From Tubulanus polymorphus (lineage: Eukaryota; Nemertea; Palaeonemertea; Tubulaniformes; Tubulanidae), in NCBI RefSeq assembly GCF_964204645.1, contig NC_134030.1, positions 17,551,110-17,615,109 of the forward strand: DNA of 64,000 bases, written 5' to 3'. The notes under the pieces were generated by a model, which was not told where the DNA came from, ran no database searches, and saw nothing but the letters and a program-made list of their open reading frames with translations. Shown one piece after another: positions 7,985 to 64,000 of this stretch (position 1 is the stretch's first letter; every line of letters begins with the position of its first letter). The position numbers and the translations under genes are program-made.

Positions 7985-8557
7985 CTCAAGTTTGATTCCA
8001 TCAAGCAATTGAGCTGAAACTCCAATTTGATTCCATCAAGCAATTGATCTGAAACTCCAATTTGATTCCATTGCACTATTTTGATCCGAAACCGCAATTT
8101 GATTCCATCGCACAATTGAGCTGAAACCCCAATTTGATTCCATCACACAATTGATCTGAAACTCCAATTTGATTCCATCACACAATTGAGCTGAAACTCC
8201 AATTTGATTCCATCACACAATTGAGCTGAAACTCCAATTTGATTCCATCACACAATTGAGCTGAAACTCCAATTTGATTCCATCAAGCAATTAAGCTGAA
8301 ACTCCAATTTGATTCCATCACACAATTGATCTGAAAATCCAATTTGATTCCATCAAGCAATTGAGCTGAAACTCCAATTTGATTCCATCACACAATTGAT
8401 CTGAAACTCCAATATGATTCCATCAAGCAATTGAGCTGAAACTCCAATTTGATTCCATCACACAATTGATCTGAAACTCCAATTTGATTCCATTGCACTA
8501 TTTTGATCTAAAACCGCAATTTGATTCCATCACACAATTGAGCTGAAACCCCAATTT
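7985..8557. repeat. 35-bp minisatellite, about 16 units
   Basis: Unit close to gattccatcacacaattgagctgaaactccaattt, alternating between aagcaattgag, acacaattgat and gcactattttgat variants. It ends only a few bases before the first codons of the PIF1 helicase frame, so the array occupies the place of that gene's 5' flank. Confidence 0.9.
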
Positions 8558-11500
8558 GTGGACAGAATGTTAAATCCTGAGCAACAAAAAACGGTAGACC
8601 TTATTGCAGCATGTCATTCTATTTGTATTTTGGGTCAAGCAGGTTCTGGAAAAAGTTTTTGTATACGTAAAGCCGTGACGAAATTGAAAAAACAGTCAAA
8701 GAAAGTTGCAGTTTGTGCAACTACTGGTATTGCTTATTGTCAATTGACAGACCTTGATGCAGTCACTATACATAGCTGGTCAGGTATCTTAGATGGACGT
8801 TTTTCTAAATCTGAGATGAAGAAGAGGCTCATGACAGACGCCCAACTTATCGATGTTAAAAATTACATTTCATCAACAGATATTTTGTTCATTGACGAAA
8901 TTTCAATGCTCAGCGCATATATTTTTGAACTCATCGAGTTCACTTGTCGTACAGTGCGAGGTTCATCACAGTGGTTTGGTGGTATGCAAGTAGTAGTGAG
9001 CGGTGATTTTTTTCAATTACCACCAGTACCAAATCTGGAATTACGAAGATGATGGCCATTATTGCTTTGAAAGTAGTATATTTAATTTTAGTCATGTGAT
9101 GATTTTGAGTAAGGTTGTTCGTCAAGCTGATGAAGAGTTTATTAATATCATCAATGAGGTAACTCGTGGTATTACATCGAAGGAATGTAATTCCTTTTTA
9201 GCAAGTTTAACGCGTCCTTTACCAGAAAATCTAACTGTAACTCATCTATTTGCAAACAATTTTAATGTAGAAGTTACAAACCAAATGGAGTTAAGTAAAC
9301 TTGCCGGTATTGGGAAAATATATGTAGCTACTAGTGAGGAAGGGACATCTGATTCCCTTAACTCTTTGCCAGCAGTTCATAAGTTACACTTGAAGATCGG
9401 TGCGCCAGTTATTTTGATAAGAAATATCAACAAGTTTCTTGTCAATGGTTTACAAGACTATGTAAAGAGTATGCACCCAGATTTTGTAACAATATTTTTT
9501 CCGTCTGTCCATAAAACTGTTGACATCAAACCAGCGGTGTTTTCTGTATTTTCAAAAAGAAAGCGTGTAAATATTTGCAAGCGATCGCAACTGCCTTTGC
9601 GTCTAGCATTTTCATTGACGATACATCGTTGCCAAGGTATGACTTTAGAAGCAGTTTCTGTTGATTGTCGCAACATACGAACAGCTGGTCAGTTTGGTGT
9701 AGCAATCAGTCGTGTAAGAACACCAGATAATCTGCGTGTCCAACATTACGAGCCCAAAATATGCATCAAACCCCCATCAAGCGTTATAGATTTTTATGAG
9801 GAGCACATAATGGCTTCTGCAGATTTTGTTCATGATCTGTCGTGCTGTGTTTTTGGTGAAGGTATATGCCCTATTGATGCAATTAGCTTTGATTCGGAAT
9901 GTCAGTCAGATGAAGATAGTCAATTCGACGAATCCGATTTGCGAGCTATAGATTATTTTTTATCAGGTCAAACTGATTGTTTCGATAGCAGTCGATCCTC
10001 AACTTACCCTTCTACAATCGACCCTTGTCATGTTGTAAAACAATTGAAGTTTTGGGACGCAGTTCTTGATAATCAGATCGACCAAAATAGAGTTCTCGAT
10101 GATATCTCATCGTCTATCGATTTGAATCTTTACATCTCACATATCTGGTCGAAATTGGATTACTTATATGAGTTACATGTATCTTTAACCATGATCCAGC
10201 AACCAAAAAACCAGGTGCAATACATATCAGCATTTCATTCATTTGTGACTTGTCAAGAATTCCTGACTTACTCCGAGCAATTGTTGAAGCGAAAACCCTT
10301 AACTCCGATTGAGATTAAAGTGTGTTCAAGAATCTGTTTCAAACTATTATCCAAGTATCTGGAATTTCGTACTTCAAGCATAGATAGAATTGTGATTGTA
10401 AATAGTTCAGCAACTGTTGAGTCTAGTGCCCACGGAAAAGTTCGTTACGTGGGTGGTTATTGTATTTTTTCCGTTTCTCGCTATTTCCAAAAACTCGTCC
10501 GTTTTCATTTAGCAAAGTTGGACGAATGTTTTTATGTAGCAAAGTTGAAATTTGATTTGTTACAATCACTCAGAGTCGCTCAGGCTATGCTTGAAGAGAG
10601 TGTTTATCAAGAAACACTTGTTGAAACTTTGCGTCGGCAAAATTCGTTTGAAGGTCTAACGAATATATCAGATAAAGCTTTCGAATTTTTCCTCGAACTG
10701 GAGAAACTTCGTATTCGATATCGATATCTAATATGTTTCGATATGTAAATAATCAGGCATATAAGACTCTGTTGGAAGATGCTCTCAATTATGTTGTGAG
10801 GGACTCTGGTATCAAGGCGAAGTGGTTTAGTTTGTTTGAGATAACTAGTCATATTCCTGAAGTTACGGAATCATCTGGAATTCGTGATTTGGTCGATAAA
10901 CTTTTTCTTATTTCCACTGCAATTTTAGATATTTTTCGAGATGTCTGTGTGAAGTATATGAAAGTTGGGAATGCTCAATTCCGTAAAGATCTGTTACAGT
11001 ATATCGGCCAAAAAAAGACTCAAGCCCATAGACGTCAAATTCTTATAAGAAAAGAGAAGCAATCGCAGCAGCAGTCCGGTATTATTACTATGACTACTAT
11101 CAGAAATAATCCCACTACCATACATTCAATCATTCAGTATGCATTATCTAATCAATCATTTAAATTTGATGGTTTCTGCAAAGCTGACCTAATGATATTA
11201 TGTCGCTGCTACGGTATAAAATCAGTTTCTAAACTGAATAAGGTTGGCCTTGTAAACGCGCTGTTGGAAACCCTGTGTGAACTAGAATCCATGCCGAACC
11301 CCGAATTTCTCGACCAACGTAGTATCTCTAGCAGCAAGGTGGTATTACAGCAACAGCAACACAGCATTGTTGCTGTTGCTGCTGATACTGCTGCTGATGG
11401 TATTGAAGGTGCTTCTAGTTCGAAGGATTCTTCGGGATCAGAACAGAGAGGTCTATTAGCTCTGCCCATTGCAACATCTGCAGACTGCCATAGCTCTATA

Positions 11501-21410: not shown

Positions 21411-22357
21411 GGAAACCCAAAGAAACCAAACAACTGAGAAATGATAACGAAATCAGCGAAAATTGAGCGATTTTCACTTTTTTGAGACCCTGAGGATTTT
21501 TTGAATTTTCTGACCCCCCAAAGAAAAAAATTGACTGCCCTGTATGGTTTTCTTGTTGTCCTATGATATTATGAGAGAAAATAGTTATTTACTATTTGAT
21601 TTGTATAAGATTTTGGCTTCTAAAGTACAATACAAAGACTTTTTTGGTGCGTGACCTCAACTTGACCTCAGGTTTTGGGGGGTCCTACCTTGCACCCCTA
21701 GGTTCAAACTTTTTATAACTTACATTTTCTGTTAGAGATACCTATTAGCTTCATTACAGATATCGGTTTTAGGGGGGTCTCTACAGTGGAAATGTATCTA
21801 AATTTACATAGAAATCATAAGACAATAAAGGCCAAAATTAATTCCCCACATGGAATGGATAATGATGAAATATATTCCCCCGGCGAAAGAGTTAAACTTG
21901 ATTATTTGGATTTGCTTGACAGTATGATTATTCAAGTGCATGTTGTAATCTTATGTTGCTTGGGTGGCTGAAATTTCAGTTGGAGTATTTTGCTTATGCG
22001 TAGAGGATTGCTCGATTACTGTCATAATTAGTTGTTTCCTTGGTTATTGATAATTAATTGCTTGCTTGACACCCAGGAGGTGATTTAAGTTTTTTTCATT
22101 TTGTAAAACGGAAAACTGTATATTTGTAAGAGGGTTCTTCCAGGTTATTATATGATTTGACCTGTGTTACATAATAGTTTTATAACTGGAGTTTCCCTCT
22201 CTTGGTCGTAAGCGTGGTAAGTGCTATAACAAGGTTGGTGAGTACCTGTGTTATGTGAATCAATGCTATCATTTTTGAAATTGGGGTTGTACAAACCAAT
22301 TCATTTGTGGGTAGTTAGCTCAGATAGTTCATACAGATAATCCAATTCAGTCCAATT
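21411..22357. other. 5' flank of the gypsy element; LTR not resolved
   Basis: No gene recognised. A 5' LTR and primer-binding site should lie in the last kilobase before 22358, but no matching 3' copy was found, so the borders are not given. The 61-codon frame at 21786-21971 is unrecognised. Confidence 0.3.
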
Positions 22358-25300
22358 ATGTCGTCGTTGCGGGCTGGCCATGTCGTCTCTGTTGGGTTCA
22401 TTGGTTCAGTGAGTCTGGACCGGGAGGTTATTCGAGCGGAGTTTCGCAGATTCGGTGAGGTTGAATTCGTTTGTGTATCTGGACAGACAGCATATGTTGT
22501 GTTTGTCAACGCCAGCTCAGCTAAAAATGCAGTTGCTGCAGAAATCGAATTTCAGGGTAATGTGGTGCAGATAGTGGTTGTGCCGTTGGACCAGTTATCG
22601 GATGTAGAACAACAAATCGCTGAAGCGCGTATAGAGGAGATCCTTGGTGGGTTAAACCCTACTTTACGTGGATCCGTTGTAAACAGATTTTCTTACGGGG
22701 ATGGTGCTGCTTCACGGAAGCGATTGGGGTTTGAACCGGTGAATCCGCCCAGTTTTGCGCCGTTCGAGGATCCGAGGCCGAAGGAGTTTGCTGAGTCGTC
22801 TAAAGGAAGACAAAATGTCGTGATAAACACTCCATCACGCCTCTGTACGTTTTCCGGTGAGGAGAATAAAACTGATGTCTCGTATCGGCAGTGGAAGAGT
22901 GAGGTGCGGGGTTTGCAGGCAGATGGTGTGTACTCGGATTCGCAAGTGGTGAATTTCATTCGTAGGTCACTGAAGGGTACAGCACGTGATTGTTTGTTGA
23001 ACCTTGAGGGTGAGTACGGGTCAGACTTGTCGTTGAACATGGTGATCAATCGACCTGTTTGGGGAGATTTTAACTGCTAGGCAATAATACGGAAAATTTT
23101 ATACAGCAGAGCAAGGTAGGGATGAGTCAGTGTGAATCTCTGGGCGTGTCGGTTGGAGGAGATACGGGGTCACACCCCTGGACAGATTGATGAGGCGGAA
23201 CTGAAGACGCAGTTTTGGCAGGGATTGTTTAACAGGCAGCTTAAACTTGGGCTGCGTCCGCTGTTGTTATCTCATTCATACCAGGAAATGGTGGTTGAGG
23301 CAAGGAAATTGGAGCAAGAGTTTGGGTTCCAACCTGAAGGTCGGAAGATTGCAAGCGTTGGGAAAGAGGCATCTAACCTTGAAAGGAATCTGGTGCCTAG
23401 GCAGCACCAGATGTACGCTGAAGGTTCGGGCCAACTTGTAAAGACCGTTGAATCATTGGTGGAAACCGTTAATGAACTGAAACGGGAGATAACAGCACTG
23501 AAGATTGAAAGAACCTCAGATTATCACGATCAAGGTGACATCGCGCAGGCACGGGGCCGAGGAATGGATAGAGGCGGAGCAATACGCGGCCGAGGTTATA
23601 ATAACCGTCCAGTTTCACGTGGCCGTCGCAGAGGATGTTTTAACTGCGGGGGGTTGGACCATTTTCAGCGAGATTGTCGGCGCACGGGAAACCGGTCGGA
23701 GCCTGGCCCCGGACCCATGGGCCAGGCCAGTCGTCGTTAGTGGGTCCAGCTAATGAATCGGATATTGTCGTCAATAATCAGCCTTGTCGAGCATTGATTG
23801 ATACGGGGGCTCAGGTAACAACGGTCTCAAAGAGTTTCTTTAGTTCACTCGTGGATACGCAGCTGTTTCCTGTCAATGATTTTTTGGATGTGAAGACCGC
23901 CGGTGGAACTGAACTACCCTATTATGGGTGTGCAGGAGTTACGTTGGTAGTGGAGCACCAGATACTCGATGTTTTGGTTTTGGTGGTTGAAGATACTAGT
24001 TACAGTGAGTCGGTGCCTGTGGTGTTGGGCACTAACGTGTTACAGCATTTGCACGATGACAAGGGAGCTGTTGGATTGGCGAAACAATGTTTGTCAGCCA
24101 AACCTGAGCAGGTGCGTACGACGACGGAAATAACTGTACCGCCTATGAGTCAACTTAGCGTGCATGGGCTGGTACGTGGAGTATCGACGGATTCGAGTTT
24201 GGTGATGACTTGCTCGTCGGAAGAGGTTAACCTACCTGGGACCCTACTACTGGTACCTAGCATAAGTAAGGTGGCGGCAGTGCAGTGTAACCGTATAAGC
24301 GTGTGGGTAAGGAATATTGGATGTCGGCCTGTCACCATTCCTGCTCGGTCACCAGTGTGTAGCATTGAGGGTGTGCGTCGAGTGGAGCCGAAGCTGATGA
24401 ATAGTGATATTCCTCTGCAGCGACAGTGTGGTGCAATAGAGTCAGGAGCAGATGATAAGTTTTTTGACTTTTTCAACTGGGAAGGTTGCGAGACGACTCC
24501 GGGGCAGCTTCTCCGGTTAAAAGACGTTCTGCGGAAGCATAAAGGCATTTTTTCGGTCGCTGATGAAGATACTGGACGTGCTTCCGCGATTCGACATGAG
24601 ATCAATTTGACTGATAATGTACCGTTCAAGGAGAGATATCGACGAGTTCCTCCGCCCATGGTGAACGAGGTGAGGGATCACCTTAACATGATGGCGTCCA
24701 CAGGATTCATCCGTCCATCTTTTAGTTCATGGTCATCACCGGTAGTTCTCGTCAGGAAAAAGGATGGCGGTCTTCGATTTTGTGTGGATTATCGGACCCT
24801 CAATCGGAGGACCGTGAAAGATCGGCAGACTCTTCCCCGCGTGGATGAATTAGTTGAAAGTGTTGCCGGTGCCAAGTATTTCACCACTCTCGACCTGAAG
24901 GCTGGATATTGGCTAGTCGAAGTGAAAGAGGAGGATAAGCCGAAAACTGCCTTCAATGTCGGGCCGGGTTATGGATTTTGGGAGTTTAACGTGATGCCCT
25001 TCGGGTTGACAAATGCACCGTCAACGTTCCAGCGCTAAATGGAAAGGACTCTGACTGGCGGATTTAAACCTCCGTGAATGTCTGGTTTTCATCGATGACA
25101 TACTTATTTTTTCGGACACATTCGAGGAGCATGTTTAGCGGTTGGAGCATGTGTTGGATCGTCTTGCTGCTGCAGGACTGAAGTTGAAACCCTCAAAATG
25201 TGAGTTTTTACGGTCAGCAGTTGTTTACCTCGGGCACAGGATCTCTGAAAAGGGAGTTGAACCCGATCCAGCGAAATTAAGTGCTGTGAAGGATTGGCCG

Positions 25301-27273
25301 GCCCCTAGAACCGTAACTGAAGTGCGACAATTCCTGGGGTTTTCGGGCTATTATAGACGCTTTATAAAGGACTATGCCAGAGTAGCTGCTCCGTTAACGA
25401 AATTGTTAACGGGAGTCACGAATCTTAAGGGGAAACGTAAGACAGCGGAACGGAGGATTGAGGTACAGTGGGGACCGGATGAAGAAAACGCATTCACGAG
25501 GTTGAAGGAGATGTTGACGTCAAGCCCCATCTTAGGGTTCGCAGACTTTAATAGACCCTTCGAGCTTCATACGGATGCAGCTCATGATGGATTAGGCGCG
25601 ATCCTATACCAAACAGATGGAAAGGGAATAAAGAAGGTAATCGCTTACGCAAGTAGAGGATTGAATGCTTCAGAGAAGAAGTATCCTGCGCACAAGCTTG
25701 AGTTCCTGGCTCTGAAATGGGCGGCGACGGAAAAGTTCCACGATTACTTGTATGGTAACAAATGTTGTGTCCATACTGATTCGAACCCCATGTCTTATGT
25801 GTTAAAATCTGCGAAACTGGATGCCACGGGACATCGCTGGCTACAGGCTTTATCAGTGTACGATTTGGAACTCGAATACCATAGTGGCGCTAATATGCGG
25901 GATGCAGACGCGCTGAGTCGAAGTCCATTAAATCGGATCACTGCTGACGTCTTTGCAGCAATTTGTACCGTAAGTCCGTCAGTCCCTGTGACGAAAGCCG
26001 GAGGGGTAGCAGAGGTAGACATGCGAAAATTGCAGGAGCGAGACCCGACTATTCGACGCGTTGTTTCTTGTTTAAGGACCAAGACAAGATTCCGGCCAGC
26101 TAAGCCATTGGAGTACGGGATCTGTCAGGTTTTTAAGTCGCTGGAACTTCTGGATGATGTTTTGTACCGCAGAGTTGTTGAAAATGGAGTGTCAGAGCTG
26201 AAAGTTTGGTTGCCCTAATCGGAGAGGGTGGAGATGCCTGACTGTTTGCACGATTGGTTGGGGCATCCCGGCCGTGACAAACGTTGGCGTTATTGAGACG
26301 AAGATGTTATTGGCCCGGAATGAAATCCGACGTCGAGGAATATTTGAAGAGATGTAAGCGCTGTGTGCTGCTGAAGGCTTCGACGCCTACACAAGTTGCC
26401 CCGCTGGTCAGCATTGAGACATCGTACCCCATGGAGTTCCTGTGCATTGATTTTTTAACATTGGAGCCGAGTCAAGGTTTCGAAAAGGTGCTTGTTATGA
26501 CCGATCATTTCACAAAATTTGCGATGGCTATTCCGACTAAAAATGAGACGGCTAGAACGGTGGCTAAGTGTTTATTCAACGAAGTGGTGCTGAAATTCGG
26601 AGCGCCTGTTCAACTTCATTCGGATCAGGGGCCTGCCTTCGAAAGTCGTGTGATCAAGGAGTTATGCGAGTTGACCGGTATGAGGAAAACCCGAACTACA
26701 CCGTATCACCCTGCGGGCAATGGTGCTGTGGAACGGTTTAATGGTACGTTGATTCGACTACTGGGTAGTTTACCGCCCGAGGAAAAGAGAAACTGGCGGA
26801 GGCATATTAATGCATTGGTGTATGCGTATAATTGCATACCCCACGAGTCGACAGGCTTTGAGCCATTCTACCTTATGTTCGGAAGAAGACCCAGACTGTC
26901 AGTTGATAAGAAATTTGGTTGGAGTAATGAAGAAAGTGTGACGTCGACTACAGAGTATGTGAAGCAGATGGAAAATCAATTGGAAGTGGCGTGGAATTTG
27001 GCAGCAGATCACTTGTCTAGGCAAGGGGATAGACGGAAAGAGTTATATGACAGGAGAGCTAAGAGTGCAGAATTAACGCCCGGTGATATGGTGTTGGTCA
27101 AGCGTGAAGGATTCAGGGAACGACATGAATTAGCTGACCGCTGGGAATCGGTGCCTTATATCGTAGAAAGCAAGGTAACTGGAGATGTACCTGTTTACGA
27201 GGTAAAAAGAATTGAAGATGGGGGTAGGAGGATTCTGCATAGTGAACCACAGCTAGATTTTCGTAGTATTTGA
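22358..27273 (+). mobile_element. Ty3/gypsy LTR retrotransposon internal region, broken
   Basis: Gag (22358-23740, interrupted by a stop at 23078-23080 and a shift before 23132) ends in a CCHC zinc knuckle, CFNCGGLDHFQRDC. Protease follows with ALIDTGAQVT in the frame starting 23674. RT has LRFCVDYRTLN, LDLKAGYW and MPFGLTNAPSTFQR, then a TAA at 25036-25038; the catalytic FIDDILIFSD lies in another frame at about 25091-25120. RNase H has FELHTDAAHDGLGAILY. The integrase (26284-27273) has the CKRC zinc half, Asp in DFLTLEP, Asp in HSDQGPAF and the Glu of NGAVERFNG. Order gag-PR-RT-RH-IN is that of Ty3/gypsy. No envelope frame is seen. Several stops and shifts make this copy inactive. Confidence 0.92.
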
Positions 27274-30023: not shown

Positions 30024-37300
<7,277 letters not shown>

Positions 37301-46832: not shown

Positions 46833-49800
46833 CTATTGAAGGGATCTATATACATCTAAGCCGGTCTTAATGAATTTAGCTAAGTTGACCGGTGGGTTTT
46901 TCAGAATATCAAGGGTATTAAAGGTATTCAAATTCAAAAAGTTTTTGCGTTGTTCGTTAAGTAAGGTACAGTCAAACAGAAAATGGGATTCGTCACCTAA
47001 AGTATTACAAGTGGGGCATATTCTATCGGCTCTGTCTAAATGAAGGTTTGAGAATTTGTTCACAGGTAAAATATAGGACCCGACCCTAAATTCAAATAAA
47101 CTAGTTCCTAAGTCATCACCAAGTTCTATTATATACTTCTCTAACCTAATATCATTTTTATATTGCCTAAAGTTAGTGTATATCGGATTAGTATTTATGG
47201 CAGATACAGTTTCTTGAAGGTGCTGGTCACGGAGTATCTGTTTTATTCGTTTTGAAAAAGATTTACTGTTAGTCATGAATTGCTGCGTCCAAATGCAGGA
47301 CAAACCACAGTCATCAAACGTTTTCTTTATATATGATAACCAAGGGCTCTTAAATTTATCCCTTAAAAATAAATTGAAAGATATTTTATAGAGTATTGAA
47401 TTAAGTTTGGTTTGCTTTCCAGATACTGTTTTCACCCAAAAGTTAATCATCCTGCGTCTAACATCTATATTCAAAGGGTAACGTCCTAGCTCTGATAAAA
47501 CTTGTAAGTTGCGAGAATATTTCGTCACTTTCATTAAGATTTTACAGAAGAAGCAATGAATATTTTCTAATAAATCAAGATTTTCATATCCCCAGATCTC
47601 ACACCTATACATGGCTATTGGAGCAACACACGTATCAAATAATTTAAACATAACATCTATGGGCAATTTCAAACGTCTGCCTTTTTGAACGATCGAAAAC
47701 ATAGCTCTGATAGCTTTATCGTAAAGATACTTTTTTGCCTTAGCAAAGTTACCATTCCAATTGAATTTTACTCCGAGATAAACATAATCTTCCACTACCT
47801 CTAACTCTTGATCACCAAACATAAATTTCGAAATCGTTTTTATCCGGGATTTACTTCGCGCAAATACTAGTACTTTAGTTTTCTCTGAGTTAACAGTGAG
47901 ACCATTAGCCGCGCAATATTCAAATAAGGTATCTAAGTGTAGCTGAAGAGATTTCTCATCCTCAGCAAGAATAACTGTATCATCTGCGTATAGTATTATG
48001 AATAAATTCAGTAAAGTATCAATATCCTGATCACGATTCAAATTTAGTTTTTCTATAAATGACAAAGTCGGTTTTCCACGATCAATGAAAAATTCTTCAA
48101 TGTCGTTTAAGAATAACGAAAAGAGGATAGGTGAGAGATTTTCGCCTTGTCTTAAGCCTCTATCAGCTGCAAAGTATTGTGACGTGCAACCATTTAATTC
48201 AACACATGATTTTATGGAGTTATACATATTTTTGACCACATTGAAAAAGTTTCCATTAACATTGTTAGCAATTAATTTTCGCCATAACTTTACCCTACAA
48301 ATCGAGTCGAAAGCTTTCTTAAAATCAACAAAGGCGCAAAAAAGTCTTCTTCCCTGACAAAGATACAGCTCTACGATTGTTTTAAGCGTGTAAATATGAT
48401 CAATGGTGGAATATTTCGATCTAAAGCCAGCCTGGGCTTCACTTATAATGTGATTCGTATCTAGAAATGTTGACAATCTTTGATTTAGGATACTTGTAAA
48501 TAATTTACCAAGACAGCTAACTAAGGTAATACCTCTATAATTATCAGGATTAGAGGGATCGCCATTCTTTTTGAAAATGGGTTTGATGACGCCTATAGAC
48601 CACATCTCTGGAACATATCCTGTTTTAAGAACTAAATTGAATAATTTTTGTAATATATCAACTAAAAACGGATACTGACTAACTCCCAACAGCTCATTCG
48701 TGATTCCATCAATGCCTGGGGCCTTATTGTTTTTGAGTAAAGAGATAGCCTTAATTACCTCATCACTGGTTATATCACTGTTCAAAATATAATTGTCATA
48801 GACAGGATGGTCACCCACGTCTGGGGGCTCATCACCGTCATCGGTTTCATTGTTAACATTATTCAAATCATTTAATCTCATAAAATGTTCAAGAAAAATA
48901 TCAATATCTATATTAGCCTCATTATTTTTTGTTCCGCTCGCAGAGTTTAGCATCGACCAATACTTTTTTGGGTTATTAATTTCGCATTCTCTCAATTCCT
49001 TAATAAATTCATCCTTTTGTTTCTTCTTATTTTCTCGGATGACCTTTTTATAGTTTTTAGACGAGTTCTTAAGGGATTCAAAATTGGAAGGGGTAGGGCA
49101 ACCCCTATATCTTTTTTTCATATAATTATATTTCTTCTGTGCATCTCGACAGTCCCTGCCAAACCATCTGTTGCGGACCGGTTTTTTGCAGTTATTACTT
49201 TTCCTACTTTTTCTATGGTACATCAAATTACACTCATCAGCACTTGATAATAAAGAAGATACAAATCTATCGGTAAATCCATTAATGTCATCTGGCGATT
49301 GATTTCCTAGATCTTGCAACCCGTCCAACAGTAACTTATCTAAATCATTATCTCGTAATCTTGATTCTACATTCAGGAAAAATTGATTTGATCTAGTACT
49401 GACCCACCTAATTGAAGTTTTAAAGTTCGCGTGTTCATTACCCCTTTCATTATCGCTAGCAATGGTGTCCCTAGAATTCGTATACACGCACAGATTAATA
49501 GGATTATGTCCATCAGATAATAATGGGTCAAAAGGCATTATTTCAAAGTCCTCAACATAACCAAACAGTTCTAAATCACACACAAAATAATCGATGACAC
49601 TAGTGTTCCTAAAAGTATAATTACCTGTCTGATCATTGCCACATCTGCCATTAAGGATAATTAGTGAATGGTTCTTACACAAATCTATTAGTTGATAGCC
49701 TGTATTATTCTTTCTTTTGTCCTGATTATTTCTAGTAGTGGGAACGCCTAAATTAATCAATGAGTCAACAATAGGGTCTATATATCATCTTGAATTATCT

Positions 49801-50635
49801 GATTATCAGGTTCCAAAAAGTCTGGCATACAAGCGGTGTGAGCATTAAAGTCACCAGAAATTAACACATTGAAATCATACTCAACTTTCAATTGCAATAA
49901 CTCTATTTCAATTTCTCTGATAGCTATTTCTGAATAATAACGACTATTTTCTGGAGGAATATAAATTACACCTAAAAGTACATGTTTGTCGCGATTAAAT
50001 AAATCTTTATCTAATAAATACCAAGATACAAACTGAGAGTCAGTCGAAATTGGTTTTATTTTATTTTTCATGAACTTCCTATATATGATACCGACGCCAC
50101 CTGATCCTTTTTTTGAAGATTTTTTCCTATTTTTAAAGTGCGCCATATGGGAGGCGGGCAAGCTACAACCTAAATTACCGTCTAAATCATCTAAGTGAGT
50201 TTCAGTTAGACATGTGATGTCATTATTGCTAATAAATTCACAGAATTCTGGGATATCGAGTTTAGCTATAAGGCCACATACATTCAGCGTAGAAAACTTT
50301 AATGATGATTTGATACAAGGAATTTCACTTATGTTTGCTGCGTTTGCTGTACTAGTTAAATTTTGCTTATTTAAATCAGAAGTGTTAATATTTCGCTTAT
50401 TTACATCAGAAATGAAATTGTTAGGAGTTACATCAGGTACATGATTGTTACTATTTACATCAGGGTATGTATCTACCGTATGAGAATTTACATGCGAGCC
50501 AACGATATCTGTATTTACATTTGGATAACTGTCACATAAATTTACACTATTTACAAATTCTATAACATAACAACAACTTCGAGATACAAGGACAGTCCGG
50601 TCTACGAATTGTACGCAAAGTCCCTCCGCTGGTTC
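46833..50635 (-). pseudogene. Non-LTR retrotransposon ORF2: endonuclease and reverse transcriptase
   Basis: The endonuclease part (open from 50635 to 49778) has STLNVCGL, ITCLTETHLDD and SGDFNAH, the APE-type nuclease signature. A TA-dinucleotide slip near 49783-49790 (gatatatag) shifts the frame; the second frame (46833-49760) opens with the end of the nuclease (SVIDYFVCD, LSDGHNP). The RT has NYRGITLVSCLGKLF, VDFKKAFDS, LRQGENLSP and ILYADDTVILAE. A C-terminal CCHC-like knuckle (CPTCNTLGDESHFLFDC) precedes the stop. The frame is collinear with ORF1 and separated from it only by a TAG; no in-frame ATG exists before residue 131 or so, beyond the start of the nuclease domain. One lesion only, so the copy is young. 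Clade not assigned. Confidence 0.88.
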
Positions 50636-51421
50636 CTAGTGGCTGTCCATCGGTACGCGGTCACGGTTTTCGCGGATAACGAGTTTGTCCCGTACAAAGA
50701 AAGCTTGTTTTCCGTTCGCTTTCGCAGCTCTCAGCTCGGGTAGCTTTTCGCGTCGTCTCGCCGCCCATTCCTCAGGCACCTGTTCATTCAGTCCTAAAGA
50801 CGAGCCCGGGAGATTTTTCGCAACTGAACGTACCAGTTCACGATCTTTGAAGAACTCGAATTTTGCAACAATTGGGCGCGGTTTTTTCTGTTCGTTTTTC
50901 CTTCGTCCAAGGCGATGTGTTCGCGCGAATTTGAATGAGTCCACGGTCGTCTTCGGTAACTTAAGGTCTTTCTCGCAAAAGCCTTTAATTAAGTCCTCGG
51001 TATTCTCATTTTCGGATTCCTCGACGCCGTAAAAGATCAAATTATCGCGCATGCTACGCCATTGCTGATCTAGGAGTAGTTCATGGTCCGATTTGATAAT
51101 TGCGTCCTGATCAGCGACGACTTTCTCTAAATCGCGAACTTTGCTTCTAAGTTGTTCGTTTTCACTCTTTAGTTGTAATACGTCCTGGTGGCAAAATTCA
51201 AGCGATTGTTTAACTTCGGTCATGTCCCTCTGCAAGTCGTCTAGAAGCTCTAATTTCGAAAGCTGGGAAAGAATCGCATCAAGTTTTGACGATATTCCAT
51301 TGTCTGCTTCCACACGTGATGCCGTTTCCTCAGTCGATTTATGATTCTGGCGATTCGGACGATTTGATGCTGCAGTCTTCTGCTTCTTGTTAGGGGGTGA
51401 AACACTTTGTCTTCCCGCCAT
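50636..51421 (-). CDS. Non-LTR retrotransposon ORF1, L1-ORF1p-like RNA-binding protein
   Basis: 261 residues. The basic N-terminus (NKKQK, RPNRQNHK) is followed by a coiled coil of about 60 residues (LDAILSQLSKLELLDDLQRD to LEKVVADQD), then an RRM-like region with the SMRDNLIFYGVEES block and a C-terminal domain with RPIVAKFEFFKDRELV and LGLNEQVPEEW. This order is that of trimeric L1-type ORF1 proteins that coat the RNA. It ends at a TAG (50636-50638) that lies in frame with ORF2. Confidence 0.85.
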   Translation of the reverse strand: MAGRQSVSPPNKKQKTAASNRPNRQNHKSTEETASRVEADNGISSKLDAILSQLSKLELLDDLQRDMTEVKQSLEFCHQDVLQLKSENEQLRSKVRDLEKVVADQDAIIKSDHELLLDQQWRSMRDNLIFYGVEESENENTEDLIKGFCEKDLKLPKTTVDSFKFARTHRLGRRKNEQKKPRPIVAKFEFFKDRELVRSVAKNLPGSSLGLNEQVPEEWAARRREKLPELRAAKANGKQAFFVRDKLVIRENRDRVPMDSH

Positions 51422-51718
51422 TTTCTCCAGGTCTCACCGAATATCACACAGATTTTGTGGTTGATAAAGAAAAACAAATCGGTTAAGTTTCAATATATAG
51501 AAACGGGATTAACTGGACGCAAAGAATTAAACTAATCTAGGCCCTACGCACGTTAGTTCGTTTGTCATCAACCGGTGCGATTAGTCTTTGTCGACTATGC
51601 AATGTTAATTCGTTTGATATAAGCTAGTTTTTAGTGTCTGTCGTGGCCGAATAATTAATACTAAATTCTCAGCTAATACGGGCAAAACGCACAAAAACGG
51701 CAACGGAATATAATAGAT
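51422..51718 (-). other. 5' UTR of the retrotransposon
   Basis: Lies between ORF1 and the right flanking repeat. No further coding frame; an internal promoter would be expected here but cannot be named. Confidence 0.4.
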
Positions 51719-52015: not shown

Positions 52016-54849
52016 TTAACTTGATTGCATAAATTCTCGATATATTCGATCTACATCTATTTTTACTCTCAGTCTTTTATTGAGTTTTTTAAGTTCTGAT
52101 ATGATGTTATCTCTCGTCGTATCGGGGTCGGTGCTCCAGCAGCCGATATGCAGGTCAGAAAGATGCGGAAGATTATCGATTAATTCGACGATTGATTTGA
52201 CGAATAAATCTATATCGTGCTGTGTATTAATCGGCGCTGTGCGTAAATTGCAGAACTTTAACCAGCGAATTGATGAGACGTGTTTTAGTTGTTTTAAGAT
52301 GCAATTGTCCTGTTCCGGTCTATCAAGCCCGCTATCAATACTGACTACTCGCAGCTGATTTACCGCATCTGATGATAGATACCGAACAAGTGCGTCACCA
52401 TCAGCTTCTGACCGCAATACTATTGATAATACAGTCAGCCGCGGCAGGTGAGCTAGAACGCGGTTTGATTGTAAATAAAATCCGTCAATGACAAGACGCT
52501 TTAGTTTCCGCATTAAACCGACGCTATCACTGATTGCTACATGTTGATCTGTCGTTAGTTCGCGTAGTTCGCGCAGTTCGCGCAGTTCGCGCAGTCCGAG
52601 CAATCCGAGCAGTCCTCGCAGTCCGAGCAGTCCGCGCATTTCGTACGGTTCGAACTGAATTGATTCGATGTGTGAAGATTCTAACGCGTTGTTAAAATCT
52701 TTTAATCCCTCCGAACCGATCAAATTCTTATCGAATTTTACTCCACTAAGATGTAAGCTTTTCAAACTCGGAATGATGTTTATCAGCTCTCTCATCTTAT
52801 TTCTATCGAGCTGATATCCCCGCGACCTGAGATATAGAAGTTTTAAGGATGGATACGATTTGTGAATATTGACTGAAATATTACCTAAACGTTCCGCACT
52901 AACACCAGTAACTCCAGTATCAATAATCAGACTCTCCACTGTATTGTGTGTGTTAGTATCACCACTGATCAACTGCGCGTCAGCTCCAGATTTAATCACG
53001 TGACTTGTCTTAATCCAATCATTATTGAGTTTCTTGTAACATTCACCAGTGTCGTTGAATTCATCTCGCCACACAAACCAGTTTATACTGTTACTCTTCT
53101 TACACATAGTCAAGCACTGATCGGGTATTGGTGACCACCTGCGTGTATCTATTATCATACCGTGAAGACTAGTGTTACTCGCTATGGCTTTTTCCAATAC
53201 ACGGTATTCGTCGGGTTTCAGTTCGAAAATACCTTGTATGTAAACTACCTCGATCTGACATTGTTTGTGTTCTAGTATTTTTGCGAGCGCGTTTATCCAC
53301 GATCTGCTATACGCAGATACGATCAACATTTTCTGCATGTAGGGAACTATTTCACTAATGGCGTCGTCCGGCCAGTCGGCTTCATTCAGGCATATTGACA
53401 ACTGTTCAGATAAAACAGTTCTTTCGGATCTTTCGAGTTCGATGAAGCGTTCGTAATCGGGGATGAGCGCCATCTCCCTAGTAACCGTACCCAAGAAATG
53501 GGACTTCACTATTGTGACTGCTTTTAAATGTTCATCTATTAAAGTCTTGGAAAGTTCACCGAGGCCGCGGTTATACTTGTAACGATACAGCAGCCCTGCC
53601 ATGAATCTCGGGTATAATTCACCATATTTCACAAGTTCGTCCTGTAGTTGATCAAACGCGCATTTATTCCAGGGTATTTCACCACTGTTGTTGAATTGCA
53701 CGACCGAGTGTACCGCCGCCAGAAATTCGTGCACAGATTTGTGTATGAACCGTAGCTGGACGGAGCGGTCTGATTTCCGTCGCGGCGACACCTCTTTGCA
53801 CGTCAAAGCCGTCCTCTTCGATTCGTCGAGTTTGAGATGATTTTCGCTGAAGCTGTTTTGATGCTCGATGAGCGTCTTATATGCGACTTGACAAATTTCT
53901 TTAAGCGCTTCAGAATTTTCGATGTCCCCAAAAAAACATTCCTTCGACAAGTCGAGGCCCTCGCGTTTACTGATCAGAAAACATGTCAAATCGATGTAGA
54001 TATCGGTGAGTTTTGATGGTATCGTAATTTCTTCCTCGTCCATAAACAGACAAAAAAACATATGTAGTATCAGCGGGTTGTAGTAGATACTTTCAAATAT
54101 AGGTGGCACTGCGTCTTTAAGCTTGCGGAATAGCAAATATGGATTGCGCTCGGGGAATTTTCTCTTCATAATATCGATGACTTCTTCTTGTTCGAAGCCG
54201 GATATCGATACAACGGTGAATTTGGGATCAGTGACGATCTTGCTGCCCCCGGACTCACGTGTTGTTATGACGATATGCGCTTTCGGTAATTTATTGGTCA
54301 CGTGTACGATATATTCCTTCGCTTTATCGTTTTTCAACTCGTCGAAGCCGTCTAGAAAAAATAACGCTTTTTCTGCATTTTCCCGTAAGAATTCTTTAAA
54401 ACCATCAATCGGCAGAACCTTTCTGATTTCTGGATTCAAAAGATTTTCGTAAATGTACGTATAAATACACGCGTTATCAGCGGGCAGTTCATTTAACGGT
54501 ATATAGAATAACATAGGAAACTCCGTTGTTGATGTTGTCCAGGTTAACACTTGATTAACAATCTGAGTAGTTTTACCCATACCGGGTTCACCCACGAGGC
54601 ACACGGGTTTCATAGCACGCTTGTCATGAGTGAAAAGCTTCTTGAAATCATCAGGTAAAATCACTGGCGGCTCCTCACTTTCTTTATTTTCCTTCGGGTT
54701 TCGTTTTTGGGCTCGAATTTTCGCGTGTTCTTGGGTGAAGAAGTCGTTGAAATTGGTGACGTCATCGCTCCACCAAACCTCTTTGTAATTTTCAACATCG
54801 ATCATTCGTTTATACGTTTCTTTCAGGCTCTTCTGAACTTGAGTAACAT
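52016..54849 (-). CDS. NACHT-LRR innate immune receptor, main exon
   Basis: One large exon after an acceptor (ttttacag|ATG) at 54850. Counting from the Met at 54805: Walker A GEPGMGKT at residues 72-79, Walker B LFFLDGFDEL at 148-157, sensor-like VITTRESGG near 180, and a helical region with FIHKSVHEFLAA (the FxHxxxxEFxAA motif of NACHT proteins). From about residue 600 leucine-rich repeats follow (SLKSLHLSGV, LKRLVIDGFYL, LTVLSIVL, LSDLHIGCW). A low-complexity stretch of GLLGL and RELREL steps sits between two LRRs, encoded by a 9-bp tandem repeat near 52555-52640. Such proteins sense danger or microbes and oligomerise through the ATP-driven NACHT module. It is preceded in phase by the exon at 57369-57506. 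Confidence 0.9.
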
Positions 54850-55370
54850 CTGTAAAAATGAATTCAGTTTGAGATTTTTTAGAATTTCTATGGCGGCTGA
54901 TTTTGCCTCAAAATCATAGAATCAGAAATTGTCATGAGCTAAAATTTTACAATTGACAGCAGTTACAAAATATGCCTATGTACCAAAGAAATACTGAGTT
55001 ATTCTGCTATTCAACGTCCCCTAGTGGCCTTAAACAAAAAACATACTAGAATTTTTCAATTGATTTAAGAAATTACGTTAAAATTGAATGATGAAAAAAA
55101 ACCTGTCTGATCACATCACAACACATCGCAACAGAAAATACCAAGCAATTAGGAAGCTACAGGTCTCGGAATTTAGACCAAAAATAGGTACAAAAAGGTC
55201 TCAGGACGGCCATCGTGAGTCCGATCGACCCAATTTTAACTTTTTCTTATGCTGATGTGCGCTGTGAAGATATATACTTATAAAAGATAAAGGATATTGA
55301 TTAAAGCCATTCCAATATTTGATGAATTTTCATTATAAGTAATTTGTTTATAATTAAGATTGAAATTATG

Positions 55371-57506: not shown

Positions 57507-59236
57507 CTGAAAAACAGGTTTAGAATTCAGTCATTTCATCTCAACAAGTGCAGCACATTTTTCCTGACCTAATTGTTTTGTTCAGTATTTACACAATCAG
57601 CCTCTACTCATATTCAGACTGAAGTTTTCTTTGTTTCCGCTACTGATAAAGGATAATGGAATGTAGGAAAAAAATGGCCAGGAAAAAAAGGCCAAGGAAA
57701 ATTAATGAGAACTACTGACAATGTTAATTAAGCTTTCAATTTAATCTCCATCACAAGTTCGCATTTTGAACGTTAGAATAATTTACTAATGTTCATCCGC
57801 GACTGAGATGGCCTCGATCTCCCGAGAGATTTCCGACGACGTTACAAAACACAGTTGAAATTGTTTATTAGGTTTTTATCGTGTGAAAAATGCATTCAGA
57901 TAACGCGCCGGGGTCATCGACTGAGATATCAAATCACACGCCACAACAGGTCGCCATCCGCAAATGACTTACTTTCATTAGATGTTGCAACAACAAGACA
58001 TTAATTTATCTTCTAAAAATGCCTGAATACTGTCTTAATTTGCTGGATTAGTTTAAAGCCGGGCGTAGGTAGGCCTTGCGACGCGACGCGATCGTCGCGG
58101 GCGGTCGCAGTGAGTAGCGTCGCAGTGAGTCGCAAGCCGTCGCAAGGCCGACCTACGCCCGGCTTTAAAGAGGCGCACACTCGACAATCTGACATCGAAA
58201 TGTAACCTGCATCGGTTTCTTTCAAGGATTTTATGTTGAGAAGCGAACAAGTGTAACATGTAAAACTTTCATTGATTAGACTAATGACATTTTAATACCT
58301 GCGCTACACTTTATCTAGACTTTCTGACGAATTCACATGATGATGAATGTTTAATATAATTAGTGATAATAGGTTTTGAAGATAAAATGATAAGAATTTA
58401 GTATATTAGAGCAGTTCAAAAGTCGAAATTTAGACACATCAGAAACAGCAATAAAGAAGCAGAAACACAGAAATCTTCTTGTGGTTAGTTTGTCGTATAG
58501 CCATTTTACGTAGAAAAAAAAACTGTGTCAGCAAAAGACAGACTTATGTTAGATATTGCAACGAGAAGACTTGTATCTTCTAAAAATGCCTGAATACTTT
58601 CTTAATTTGCTGGACCAGCGACCAGCAATCGGGAGCTCATCTATAGACCAGTGGAATATCGCGAATTCGCGCTCGCGCATACATGGAACTAGCCAGCGAT
58701 TTTTCCTTCGAGCTTTTTGAGCATTGAAATGAAACTGTTTTCCTCCCACAACCAAACCGAGGAAATTGTGAAGACAAAAAAGAATTCAAACGATATTTTC
58801 TCTAAAACGAGAACATATCACGTGGCACTTTGGATGCGTATTCTAAAATCGTACACATCGATGTAAGGGTAGGACTATTAGGTTTTAGGAGAGAAAGTCT
58901 TATGTCTGAACTCAACTAACGCATGCTTAAAGATCGCGCTCATTTATCAAAAAATAATTTTCCATCGCTTGACGTAGCGGGGAATATTGCAACGTTTCTG
59001 CTACAATCGCCTATAGTCGACAGTACTGTAACGCGCTATTCTCCTATATGATATTTGCCCTGTTTTGCACCTAAATCTACTCTACTGCCTTTATGTATTG
59101 TTAAATCTTTGAAGTCTAGATTAATGTTCCCCTCGTTGTCTACTTTCGATGAGTAATTGGAAAAGTGGGCTTTCAGATCAGAGGGCGAGAGGGCAAGACA
59201 CCACTCATCACCACAAGTAATTTTTTTCCCTAATAA
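57507..59236. other. Upstream of the NLR gene; duplicated 60-bp block, no gene recognised
   Basis: 57988-58050 and 58555-58617 share cttctaaaaatgcctgaatact-tcttaatttgctgga. In the first copy a foldback MITE follows at once; in the second it is absent (ccagcgacc), so the MITE probably inserted after duplication. A minus-strand frame at 59036-59359 (with DLTIHKGSRVDLGAKQ) is unassigned. Confidence 0.55.
58052..58169. repeat. GC-rich palindromic MITE (118 bp)
   Basis: tttaaagccgggcgtaggt(a)ggccttgcgacg on the left, cgtcgcaaggccgacctacgcccggctttaaa on the right, a nearly perfect inverse pair. The core is filled with gcgac/gtcgc words. It sits at the end of a 60-bp sequence duplicated at 58555-58617. 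Confidence 0.88.
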
Positions 59237-62200
59237 ACGGGGGAGAATGAATACCAGCCAGAAAACAATAATGTTAATAAAAATCAATATTATTGCACAT
59301 ATTGTAAAAAATACGTCGATACATCTCATAAAACACGACATGAAAAAACTGCAAATCATATAAAAAATGTAATAGATTTTGAAACTCCAGAAAATTCCAA
59401 TGAAAGAAAAGAAAGATTAGAAAATATGAATGTGGATGAAATAAAATGTGAAGTTTGTAATGAATTTATAGTAAAAAGGAATTATAATAGACATCTCGAA
59501 TCACAAAAACACAAACAAAATTTAAGTAATAATGTTTTAGGAAAAGATTATTTCGATGATTAACCTCAAAAAGTAATAAAACCAACTTCAAAAACTAAAT
59601 CCATTTCAAATAAACCTTACATGGAAAATGTTAGAAATTATATTGATTCACTAGAAATAAAAGATACAATTGAAATTTTAGAAACATTACATAGTAAAAT
59701 TGGTCCTGCAGCTATTATATTTAGATTTTTTAAAGGTACAACAATAGAAGATTATAGTAAATTTAATGAAATAATAGAAAAAATTACTAGATCTTATAAC
59801 AGATGTTGAATATCCAAAAATTAGTATCTCTGGGAAAGTAAGTTTTATAAAGTCAGAAGAAAAGATTGATTATAATATTCAAACACACTCTGAAGAAATA
59901 ATTTCAAAAACACAAATAAAAGAAAAGTTAGAAAAAATATTTAATGAATTTAAACGTCATATTGAAGAAAGATATTTTGAGGGTTCTGGCTGAACATTGA
60001 ATGAAATTATATATTTAGATTTAAATGTTTATAATACAAAAAGAAATAAAACATCAAAAAGTAATAAAATGTTTAAAAATGATTCAAACTTTACAACAGA
60101 AAAGGATATTAAAGCATTATCTTATATTAAATTACCATTTACAACAAAAGCAGTAATAAATATTCAAAATGAAGATAATAAATGTTTTCTATGGTCAATT
60201 ATTAGTTGCTTACATCCAACACAGGAAAATGTTTGTAGAATAACAGATTATCGGAAATATGAAACATTATATAAAATTGATCAATATCCAGTAACTATAA
60301 AAATGATTTCTAAAATAGAAAAAGTTAATAATTTGAAAATAAATGTATTCGAATTAATGCAATTACCAAAGACAAAAGGTGAAAATATTAAAGATTATAC
60401 ATTGGAAGCTTTATATTTAACAGAATATTATGATGATGAAAATGCTATAGATTTGTTATATTACAAAGATGAAAATGAACATTATATGTGGTTAAAACAA
60501 ATTGATTTATTCTTTAGAACAGAAAGTGATCATCATCATACAATTTATCCATATAGAAAATGTTTATCTAAATTTATGACTGAGATTACATTATTAAAAC
60601 ATAAAGAATTATGTGATAATAAAGATTTTTGTAAATTAATAATGCCAACAGAAAAAGATTATAAATTGAAATTTACTAATCACAAATTTAAGAATATTGT
60701 TCCATTTGTAATTTATGGGGATTTTGAATCGTTGAATAAAGAATAAACTGATCAAGATAGAAAAGAAATATATAACAAAAAGCAATTATTAAAATCAATG
60801 GATAAAGGAAATGAATTAAATGAAGACACAATACAAGACCCACCAATCATAAATACAATTAAAAAAGTTCATCAAAGAGCTGCTGCTTATGGAATTTATA
60901 TAAAATCAAAATATCCTGAATTATATGAAAGTCAATATATTTCTTTTAGAGGTGAAGATGTAGTTACTGATTTTTGTAACAAAATGATTGAATTAGGAAG
61001 TGATTTTGCAAAATTAACAAAAAAACAAAAATAAAAGAATAGTTATGACAAAAGAAGATGAAATTGATTTTAATTATGCAACTCATTGATGTTATTGTGA
61101 AAAACGTTTTTATTCATTTGATAAAAAAGTTAGAGATCATGCTCATTTAAATTCAAAATATCGTGGAGCTGCTCATGAAGATTGCAATTTACAAGCTAAG
61201 AAAGTTAATTTCGTACCAATTTTATTTCATAATTTATCAGGCTATGATACCCATCTATTTATAAAACAATTATCGGGAAAATTGGGCGCAATTAATCAAG
61301 AAATAGAAGAATATAATGCTATGAATGGTGTAAAGGTAAGAAAATATGATTTTAAACTATTAGCTAAAACATCCGAAAATTATATTTCATTTCAATTTGG
61401 TTGCATTAGATTTTTAGATTCTTATAGATTTCTAGCAAGTTCATTAGATAATTTATCAAAAAGTTTAGTTGATAATGATTTTGTTATAACTCGATATTAT
61501 TATCCAAATGACCAAGATTTTAAATTATTGAGATACAAAGGTGCAATTCCTTATTCATTTTATAAAACACACAATGATTTTAATGTAACAGAATTATTAA
61601 AAGATCAATTTTATGATCAATTAAAAGAGGAGTATGTGAAAGACGAAGTGTTTAATAGAACATTAAATATTTGGAACCATTTTAAGATGAAAAATCATGG
61701 TGAATTAGTTGATTTATATTTAAAATCAGATGTTATGATATTGGCTGACATACTTGAAAAATTTAGAGAAGTTAATTTGAATCATTTTAATGTTGATCCT
61801 TGTTATTGCTACTCTAGTCCTGGTTTTACCTGGCAATGTGGTTTAAAATATACAAATGTAGAATTAGATTTATTAAAAGAACCAGATATGGTTTTATTAT
61901 TTGAAAAATCAATTAGAGGTGGAATTAGTGGTGTTATGGGAGATAGGTATTTTAAAGCAAATGATGAATATAAATTATTATATATTGACGCCAATAATTT
62001 ATATGGTTGGGCAATGATGCAACCTCAACCATATAAAAATTTTATATTAACAGAAGTTGAAAATGATGATAAAACTAATTGGGAAAGCGCAATTATGTGT
62101 TTAGAAGATGAAGCAGCAATTGGTTATTTCTTTGTAGTTGATTTAGAATATCCTGAAAATATAAAGTTTAAAACAAGAAACGTACCTTATTGCCCAGAAC

Positions 62201-64000
62201 ATTTAACCGTAGATGATAGTTATTTAAGTGAATACCAGAAGAAAAATAAAACCGAAAGATCATGTTTTTACAGAAAAATTAATACTTACTCAAAATAATA
62301 AATACAATTATATTGTTCATTATAGAATGTTAAAATTTTATCTAAAACAAGGAATGAAATTAAAGAAAGTACATAGATATATTGAATTTAATCAATCGAA
62401 GTGGTTAGAAAAATATATAGATTTCAATACTCAACAGAGAACCATATCAAAAACAGATTTTGAAAAAGATTTCTTCAAATTAATGAATAATAGTTTTTAT
62501 GGTAAGACATGTGAAAATATTAGAAATAGAAATGATATTGAATTAGTAAATAATTCTGAAAGATTAAGACATTTACAATCAAGTCCTAGACATTTAGGAA
62601 ATAAAAGATTTGAAGATTATTTAACAGCAGTTAAATTAAAAAGAACGTCAATGAAATTTAATAAACCTATATTCATTGGTTCAACTGTTTTAGAAGTATC
62701 AAAATTATTAATGTATGATTTTTATTATAATGTTTTACAACCACTTTTTGGGGAAAAGCATATTGAAATATTATGTTTTGATTCTGTAACAGCTGACACC
62801 CCAATATTGTTAAAATGTAATGATAAAATATTGATAAGAAGAATTTCATAAATAATTCAAAAACAAAATGAATGTTATATTTCATATGGTGAAAAAGAAT
62901 TAATACAAATAAATGGATTAATGGATGGTTGGACAAGAAATGGATGGAAAAAATTAAAGAATATTATTAGACATAAAACAAATAAGAAAATCTATAGAGT
63001 TAGAACTAAATTAGGGTTTGTAGATGTTACAGAAAATCATAGTTTAATTAAACGAAATGGCGAAGAAATAAAACCAACTGATATAAAAATTGGAGATGAA
63101 TTATAACATAAAAGATTTTTCCAACGAATGAATCATATGTCATTTGATGAAATAATTGACAATATTTATAACATAGAACCCGAAACTTTTGAAGAAAAAG
63201 AATATTTTATCAAAGGATTTTTCATGGGAGATGGTTCAGCAGGTGTGTATAATTATGTTTGGGGTAATAAATATTGCTGGTATTTATGCAATCAAGACTT
63301 AAAATTATTAGAAAGAATTAAGAAATTCTGTGAAGAAGTTTATTCACATAAAACATTCAAAATCATAGATGTTATGAAATCATCAGCAGTTTATAGAATA
63401 CTTGTAAATAATCCTAAAGATTTTGCTATAAAATATAATTATGAATTCATGCAATAGTGAAAAGTAATACTTCAACAAAAGAAAAGATAGTACCAGATTA
63501 TGTATTAAATGCAAAAAATAATTTAAGAAAGTGGTTCTTCATTGGATTCTATGCCGCAGATGGCACTAAAAAATTTACAAAGGATAAAAAGATAACATTT
63601 GCACAGAAAGGAAAAGTTGCTATATCAGGATTAAATATATTAAGCAGTTCATTAGGATTTAATATGAATATAGAATTAAATAAATCTAAACCAAATTGTT
63701 TTAATTTAAGGCATGTAGAAAAAGAATTAACAGAAGAAGTTAAAGATTTATTTGAAATATATAACCCATCAGATTATGTTTATGATTTATCAACTGAAGA
63801 TGGAACATTCAATTCTGGGTTCCCATTAATCCAAAAAAATACTGACAGTTACATACTAAAAATCAAGACAAATGACATAAAAAAGACTAAAAAACATTAA
63901 AACATCATTTTGATTATCCCAAAGATCATGCACTATTTAGCAATGATAATAAAAAGATTCCTGGTAAATTTAAAGATGAATTAGGGGGTGATGAAATGAT
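59237..64000 (+). pseudogene. Protein-primed family-B DNA polymerase of a Polinton/adintovirus-like element, decayed, 3' end beyond window
   Basis: Strongly AT-rich, unlike its surroundings. In order: two zinc-finger-like CxxC...HxxxH blocks (about 59294-59510); an N-terminal domain with KCFLWSIISCLHP (60180-60218); YGDFES (about 60714, exonuclease Asp-Glu); a cysteine/histidine block with KVRDHAHLN and YRGAAHEDCN; LLYIDANNLYGW (about 61977-62010, polymerase motif A); LMNNSFYGKTCEN (about 62481, motif B); and CFD (62774-62782) before the motif C aspartates. These define DNA_pol_B_2, the protein-primed polymerases of Polintons, adintoviruses and linear plasmids. Breaks: TAA at 59561, 60744, 62849 and 63104, TGA at 59991 and 61087, and frameshifts near 59790, 61030, 62240, 63455 and 63895. 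An intein splits motif C. No ATG is found for the N-terminus. No capsid, integrase or terminal repeat is inside the window, so the exact element type is open. Confidence 0.85.
62783..63840 (+). pseudogene. Intein with LAGLIDADG-type homing endonuclease inside the polymerase
   Basis: A self-splicing protein insert of about 352 codons. The N-terminal block starts with Ser1 in SVTADTPILLK right after the polymerase CFD. Block B is the GFVDVTENHSLI stretch near 63014-63049. Two LAGLIDADG-like helices follow, YFIKGFFMGDGS (about 63203-63238) and WFFIGFYAADGT (about 63532-63567). The C-terminal blocks read YVYDLSTEDGTFNSG and end LIQKN, followed by Thr of the polymerase TDSY. The insertion point between D and TDS is the pol-c site known from archaeal and giant-virus polymerases. 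Penultimate Lys replaces the usual His. TAA codons at 62849 and 63104 and a frameshift at 63455 disrupt it, so this copy cannot splice as written. Confidence 0.88.

Follow-up and report, generated by a model that had tools for sequence, protein, structure and literature searches.

Inteins with a LAGLIDADG endonuclease at motif C (the pol-c site) of family B DNA polymerases (PolB), and the elements known as Polintons or Mavericks, are the closest described systems to the locus reported here, a Polinton whose polymerase gene is interrupted at motif C by an intein. It lies at the end of a 64,000-nucleotide stretch (the window) of the genome of the nemertean Tubulanus polymorphus (contig NC_134030.1, positions 17,551,110 to 17,615,109, forward strand). 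In the phage-type PolB inteins P0006–P0008 and P0013 the site is D|TD in the homologues read, as it is here, and motif C inteins share with ours Ser1, Thr+1 and a Hint plus two-motif LAGLIDADG fold; archaeal PI-PkoII is likened to our insert by fold alone, and not by its insertion site. Unlike in these systems, the host gene here encodes a protein-primed Polinton polymerase, carried in more than 100 copies in animal chromosomes, and the phage-type inteins are at best 40% identical to the intein in question. With Polintons the element shares a protein-primed family B polymerase (pPolB), an rve integrase with a weak chromodomain match, an A32-like ATPase, terminal repeats, a 6-bp duplication and a length of 16 kb, and it differs from them in its intein-interrupted polymerase and in the presence of a VLTF3-like gene.

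HNH and VSR nuclease domains inserted in Polinton pPolBs were reportedly described by Jeong et al. in 2023, and these insertions are said to be without a Hint splicing domain, without LAGLIDADG and not at motif C. They resemble the present case in being selfish endonucleases in Polinton polymerases; unlike those described, the insert here has splicing blocks, a predicted fold, corresponding empty sites and signs of selection. PMC11071308 deals with homing endonuclease domains in Polinton pPolBs and suggests intein invasions as their origin. PMC5784728 describes inteins as absent from metazoan genomes and PMC5056185 as absent from multicellular eukaryotes, and both connect this absence with the use of splicing inhibitors as drugs. 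In the open-access literature searched, no splicing-domain intein was found described for an animal genome or for the polymerase of a Polinton.

A first-pass annotation of the window, made from its letters alone, had placed an intein at the polymerase motif C, with a Ser start, blocks A and B, two LAGLIDADG motifs, blocks F/G and an Asn before Thr. All of these parts were found at exact coordinates, and the placement is borne out by homologues and by the predicted fold. The features are listed below for the window copy, open copies being those elsewhere in the genome whose frame is open.

59237..62782, + strand: N-extein, protein-primed family B DNA polymerase, with several stops and frame changes in the window copy
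62783..63840, + strand: intein (Ser1 to Asn, then Thr+1), 1058 nt, against 1065 nt (355 aa) in open copies
62783..62821, + strand: intein block A (SVTADTPILLKCN), with Ser1, Asp5 and Thr6 invariant in alignment A2
63020..63040, + strand: intein block B, VDVTENH, with both residues of its T..H motif present in 7/7 open copies
63206..63235, + strand: first LAGLIDADG motif, FIKGFFMGDG, with Asp150-Gly151 in 7/7 open copies
63532..63564, + strand: second LAGLIDADG motif, WFFIGFYAADG, with Asp262 in 6/7 and Gly263 in 6/7 open copies
63775..63840, + strand: intein blocks F and G, YVYDLS...PLIQKN, the penultimate residue being Lys instead of His
63841..63900, + strand: start of the C-extein, TDSYILKIKT..., its frame soon lost in the window copy; 151 aa in open copy L010

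The extein frame reads ILCFD up to the Asp at 62780–62782, the insert starts at 62783 with Ser1 of SVTADTPILL and ends in PLIQKN with the last Asn at 63838–63840, and the polymerase resumes at 63841 with Thr+1 of TDSYILK. The window intein has decayed, with TAA at 62849–62851 and 63104–63106 and a frame change at about 63445–63457. Read-through of TGA or TAA under an alternative genetic code was ruled out as the cause of these stops, since there are frame changes too and long open frames elsewhere.

Because pieces of the window match Intein_splicing (E 0.019) and LAGLIDADG_3 (E 0.0025) only below the curated Pfam cut-offs, the window alone would leave doubt. In the open copy P0219, LAGLIDADG_3 reached 26.9 bits, above its cut-off of 22.5, and Intein_splicing E 1.9e-5 at 25 bits, under its cut-off of 35.8. 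The profile search proposed at first pass turned out favourably for LAGLIDADG_3 in P0219 and for the polymerase (DNA_pol_B_2, PF03175, E 5.6e-15 for the window piece 61090–62295), with Intein_splicing below cut-off throughout. A Hint plus two-motif LAGLIDADG structure is predicted, with fold matches to PI-PkoII and I-DmoI; on this model the insert would have the Hint fold of a class 1 intein, and open copies carry the class 1 residues as well (Ser1, TxxH in block B, block F and a terminal Asn, followed by Thr+1). Two motifs with acidic residues mark a putative LAGLIDADG homing endonuclease. Chance resemblance is excluded because each intein half occurs at no fewer than 150 genomic places among the matches listed, because homologues in the Polinton-type polymerases P0001–P0004 cover 100% of the query at 46–47% identity, and because of the predicted fold.

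The polymerase piece 61090–62295 had no match in the phage collection and none in PADLOC. A zf-U1-like finger lies within the N-extein at 59237–59563, and the N-extein was found at at least 103 places in the genome among the matches listed. The genome also contains a second Polinton-type polymerase family (L001–L008), in which YSDTDS or YTDTDS is uninterrupted in 7 of 8 loci, those with the motif found.

A Polinton with an intein has been amplified to more than 100 chromosomal copies in an animal, and part of this family is intact: 11 of the 150 listed copies hold the intein in open frames of 1686–1690 aa. Ser1, Thr83, His86, Tyr336-Asp337 and Asn355 are present in 7/7 open copies, and Thr+1 in 9 of the 12 junctions read; in the other three copies the frame is already lost there. 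The ratio of nonsynonymous to synonymous polymorphism (pN/pS) reveals purifying selection among the open copies, with values of 0.21 for the intein (seven copies) and of 0.094 and 0.129 for the N- and C-extein (eight copies each), and the intein value indicates that it was maintained as a protein while the elements multiplied. The insert might instead be a dead passenger, a decayed fossil without recent activity, as the two stops and the frameshift of the window copy would have it. For that copy this holds; for the family it is largely refuted by the open copies and by pN/pS, the splicing residues being intact in 7/7 open copies, and we regard it as highly improbable. The first-pass statement that polymerase and intein share decay was correct for the window copy, but does not extend to a family with this many open frames.

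Element ends were found by comparing the flanks of copies and then their termini, and for the window copy this gave two further features.

59146..59151, no strand: target-site duplication TCGATG, 6 bp, the identical 6-mer standing directly after the 3' terminal repeat (L060:6800-6805)
59152..59221, + strand: 5' terminal inverted repeat (AGTAATT...), the element start, compared with the reverse complement of the 3' end

There are 2 mismatches between the ends in the first 70 nt (counted by eye), and the copy spans 16,038 bp from 59152 to C6:17626298, its 3' end lying 11,189 bp past the window. A perfect 6-bp target-site duplication, of a different sequence in each, surrounds 7 of 8 copies examined; for the C1 copy no 3' end could be located in the sequence retrieved. 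The 3' part of that copy (L036/L055) has inverted segments relative to the other copies. Among the 150 places listed, intein-bearing copies occur on each of C1–C12. Downstream genes were read in the C3 (L056) and C8 copies, to which the window copy was aligned at the DNA level, and include the rve integrase (E 2.5e-10) with its weak chromodomain match (8e-4, under cut-off), the A32-like packaging ATPase (E 2.7e-13), a Pox_VLTF3 match at L044:849-1469 on the minus strand (E 1.6e-5; 25.1 bits, cut-off 25) and a weak match to DUF5901 (E 5e-4, under cut-off). Late transcription factors of the VLTF3 kind are otherwise known from giant viruses. Having pPolB, integrase and ATPase on the one hand, and terminal inverted repeats with the 6-bp duplication on the other, the element is, by its sequence, a Polinton/Maverick. 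No capsid match was obtained for three large open reading frames (ORFs) of the element. A conserved 462-aa ORF (L056:19-1404) has 154 homologues among 7999 candidates scored, some on contigs of more than 1 Mb; it was considered as a capsid and set aside, with no convincing PDB sequence match and a mainly helical model (pLDDT 70.6), and is probably not one. PDB sequence comparison, homologue search and the model yielded no function for it.

The first-pass proposal of a Polinton-like element integrated in an animal genome stood up, with TCGATG on both sides of the window copy and copies on each of C1–C12. The host is identified as an animal by 39 matches to Wnt (PF00110) in the same assembly, a family that is to our knowledge animal-specific; its 0 matches in 14 control genomes carry little weight, as those named are prokaryotes. 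A search for COX1 returned 0 matches. Contamination, or an episomal virus whose DNA was joined to the host contig in assembly, would accord with the greater A+T-richness of the element (GC 23–25% in the final two bins of 2 kb versus 32–49% in the rest of the window). Against it stand the seven different duplications, the spread over C1–C12 and the reverse-transcriptase elements and NACHT-domain frame upstream in the window; the target-site duplications make it very unlikely, and we reject it as the most improbable of the explanations.

Intein-free copies coexist with these in the same genome. C-extein matches were paired with N-extein ends, found or predicted, in 114 of 150 cases, and the gap between them was 1040–1089 nt in 100 pairs, 1000–1009 nt in one, 775–999 nt in six, 1941 nt in one, exactly 0 in five and −6 in one. 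The six with a gap near 0, together with the unpaired C2:12001795, empty by its coordinates, constitute seven likely empty sites, and in 7/7 YFD is joined directly to TDS, TDA or IDA, in frame and exactly, two of them carrying one stop elsewhere in the piece. The nearest outside polymerases are likewise uninterrupted (P0101, 89%; P0102–P0104, 71–74%). The intein is absent, as expected of a class 1 intein, from homologous alleles that keep an intact extein. Six copies with an insert of 775–999 nt at motif C (C1:12625166-12625940 and five others) are, by coordinates, partial internal deletions of the intein.

Empty sites also invite an account by inheritance, in which the intein passes on with its element only, empties either arose by precise loss or represent an older lineage, the mosaic of copies stems from general recombination, and the intein splices but no longer homes. 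In its favour, the empty copy L093 has the flank residues PLF of 8 intein-bearing junctions, as loss or conversion would leave. The base-pair exactness of the seven empty copies is unlike random deletion, although gene conversion from an empty copy could produce it, and the nearest outside polymerase is itself empty.

The relatives of the intein bear on its origin. Further homologues in Polinton-type polymerases cover the query in part (P0005, P0009, P0012, P0016 and P0020; 46–52% over the part covered for the Polinton-type set), and P0214 is another intein-bearing pPolB; all of these, like P0001–P0004, share polymerase family and site with ours. The phage-type inteins P0006–P0008 are 39–40% identical, and P0006, P0007 and P0013 match the phrog_262 DNA polymerase at E 2.3e-160 or better. 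Other PolB inteins and 25 viral-contig loci are more distant, with VGD|TDG as the equivalent site where readable. In P0065, a phage-type protein-primed polymerase (phrog_1907, 5.1e-57), an intein ends at NTDS, so that a phage pPolB, too, apparently has its intein at this site.

In an intein tree of 60 rows (full-length inteins of 300–430 aa, including four of our own copies) the Polinton inteins, P0001–P0004 and our four, form a clade (100/100), which is sister to the phage-type group (93/96). The overlap filter was passed by 126 of 128 polymerase homologues (P0004 failed), of which 9 have an intein, 108 an uninterrupted site and 9 were undecidable. The polymerase tree of 65 pieces comprised 11 own copies and 54 homologues, namely the full set of nine with an intein, all up to P0120 and, from the remainder, every fourth. 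Here the intein-bearing polymerases are scattered among empty ones, P0012 joining empty P0118 (100/100) and P0002 empty P0137 (95/94), and our own copies group with P0101–P0104, outside the deep branch (100/99) of the other intein-bearing ones (P0004 being outside this tree). The phylogeny of both parts, suggested at first pass as a check, thereby gives one clade of Polinton inteins and a scatter of their polymerases. A single entry into Polintons followed by horizontal spread would be the simplest reading, with repeated intein loss as the alternative to such spread.

Within the genome, flank trees mix intein-bearing and empty copies. The inteins of L014 and L021 differ at 8 of 1065 nt and their flanks at 25 of 354 nt on the N side (last 360 columns, chosen as the most variable part) and 10 of 453 nt on the C side (p 3.6e-7); with the whole N-extein piece (27/825) p is 1.2e-4, the Bonferroni limit for 91 pairs being 5.5e-4. 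Between L014 and the empty copy L088 the 3' flanks differ by 0.7%. L016, whose C-flank is truncated, was left out of the pair comparisons and kept in the flank trees. This pair and the trees indicate that the intein has moved relative to its flanks, in keeping with the scattered distribution, and we infer that the nuclease drives this movement.

Several observations weigh against an intein that splices and homes. L014/L021 is the only pair of 91 in which the intein is significantly closer than the flanks, and ordinary gene conversion could explain it. Ten other pairs pass the limit oppositely, with the intein more divergent, and the strongest six all involve L020, whose intein is nearest that of L019 and whose 5' flank is nearest L022; such pairs could reflect an intein that evolves faster in general or a transfer of the intein of L020. 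Many nodes mixing empty and intein-bearing copies are weakly supported, and the sister relation to the phage PolB inteins stands at 93/96. The second LAGLIDADG motif is altered in 2/7 open inteins (Asp262 lost in one, Gly263 in one), the penultimate Lys occupies a position where His is usual, and the window copy is dead. The pN/pS values come from copies selected for full length and absence of stops, and the copy lists are best-scoring matches to intein-bearing queries, in which open frames and intein presence are over-represented. Inheritance with the element only gains from the single significant pair and the altered motif, and also from flank haplotypes that are themselves mosaic; it is at odds with the L014 and L021 inteins being far closer than their flanks and with the proximity of the L014 3' flank to an empty copy, and we consider it rather unlikely.

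The reading that we hold to be very probable is that a LAGLIDADG intein colonised motif C of the protein-primed polymerase of an amplified animal Polinton, where it would splice and home. With motif C divided by the insert, the precursor of about 1687 aa would be unable to polymerise. Class 1 protein splicing by Ser1, the Thr and His of block B, the terminal Asn and Thr+1 would then rejoin YFD to TDS and give a polymerase of about 1332 aa that would copy the element. In copies that lack the intein, the endonuclease would recognise the intact coding sequence of motif C and cut there, a cleavage for which the evidence is comparative, and repair from an intein-bearing copy would install the intein. 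More tentatively, and at somewhat less than even odds, the animal genome would hold more than 100 intein genes, some of them living, and a splicing-competent, homing-active intein would behave like a gene drive among germline Polintons (or virions), having passed into Polintons a single time from a motif C intein of phage-type PolB and later crossed between the Polintons of different hosts.

Elsewhere in the window, an open frame of 963 aa at 52016–54907 (minus strand) has a NACHT domain (3.6e-17) and is NLR-like. A ZMYND8/11-type MYND finger at 31749–32186 (plus strand) is followed by a very long CAG/CAA-type repeat, which reads as polyAla, polyGln or polySer in the three frames. A PIF1-like helicase, perhaps of mobile-element origin, occupies two overlapping frames (1.1e-26 and 3.1e-8) at 8525–10748 (plus strand). 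Two retroelements, typed by eye, are an LTR-type with reverse transcriptase and aspartyl protease at 22328–27273 (plus strand) and a LINE-type reverse transcriptase at 46833–51433 (minus strand).

As an intein it is unremarkable, and it is the setting that appears new, an amplified animal Polinton in which empty sites coexist with intein-bearing ones and there are signs that the intein has moved. In this natural system the gain, loss and homing of an intein can be tested inside a single animal genome, and the case offers a possible path for inteins from phage-type polymerases to those of Polintons. The suggestion in PMC11071308 that nuclease insertions in Polinton pPolBs derive from inteins also gains support.
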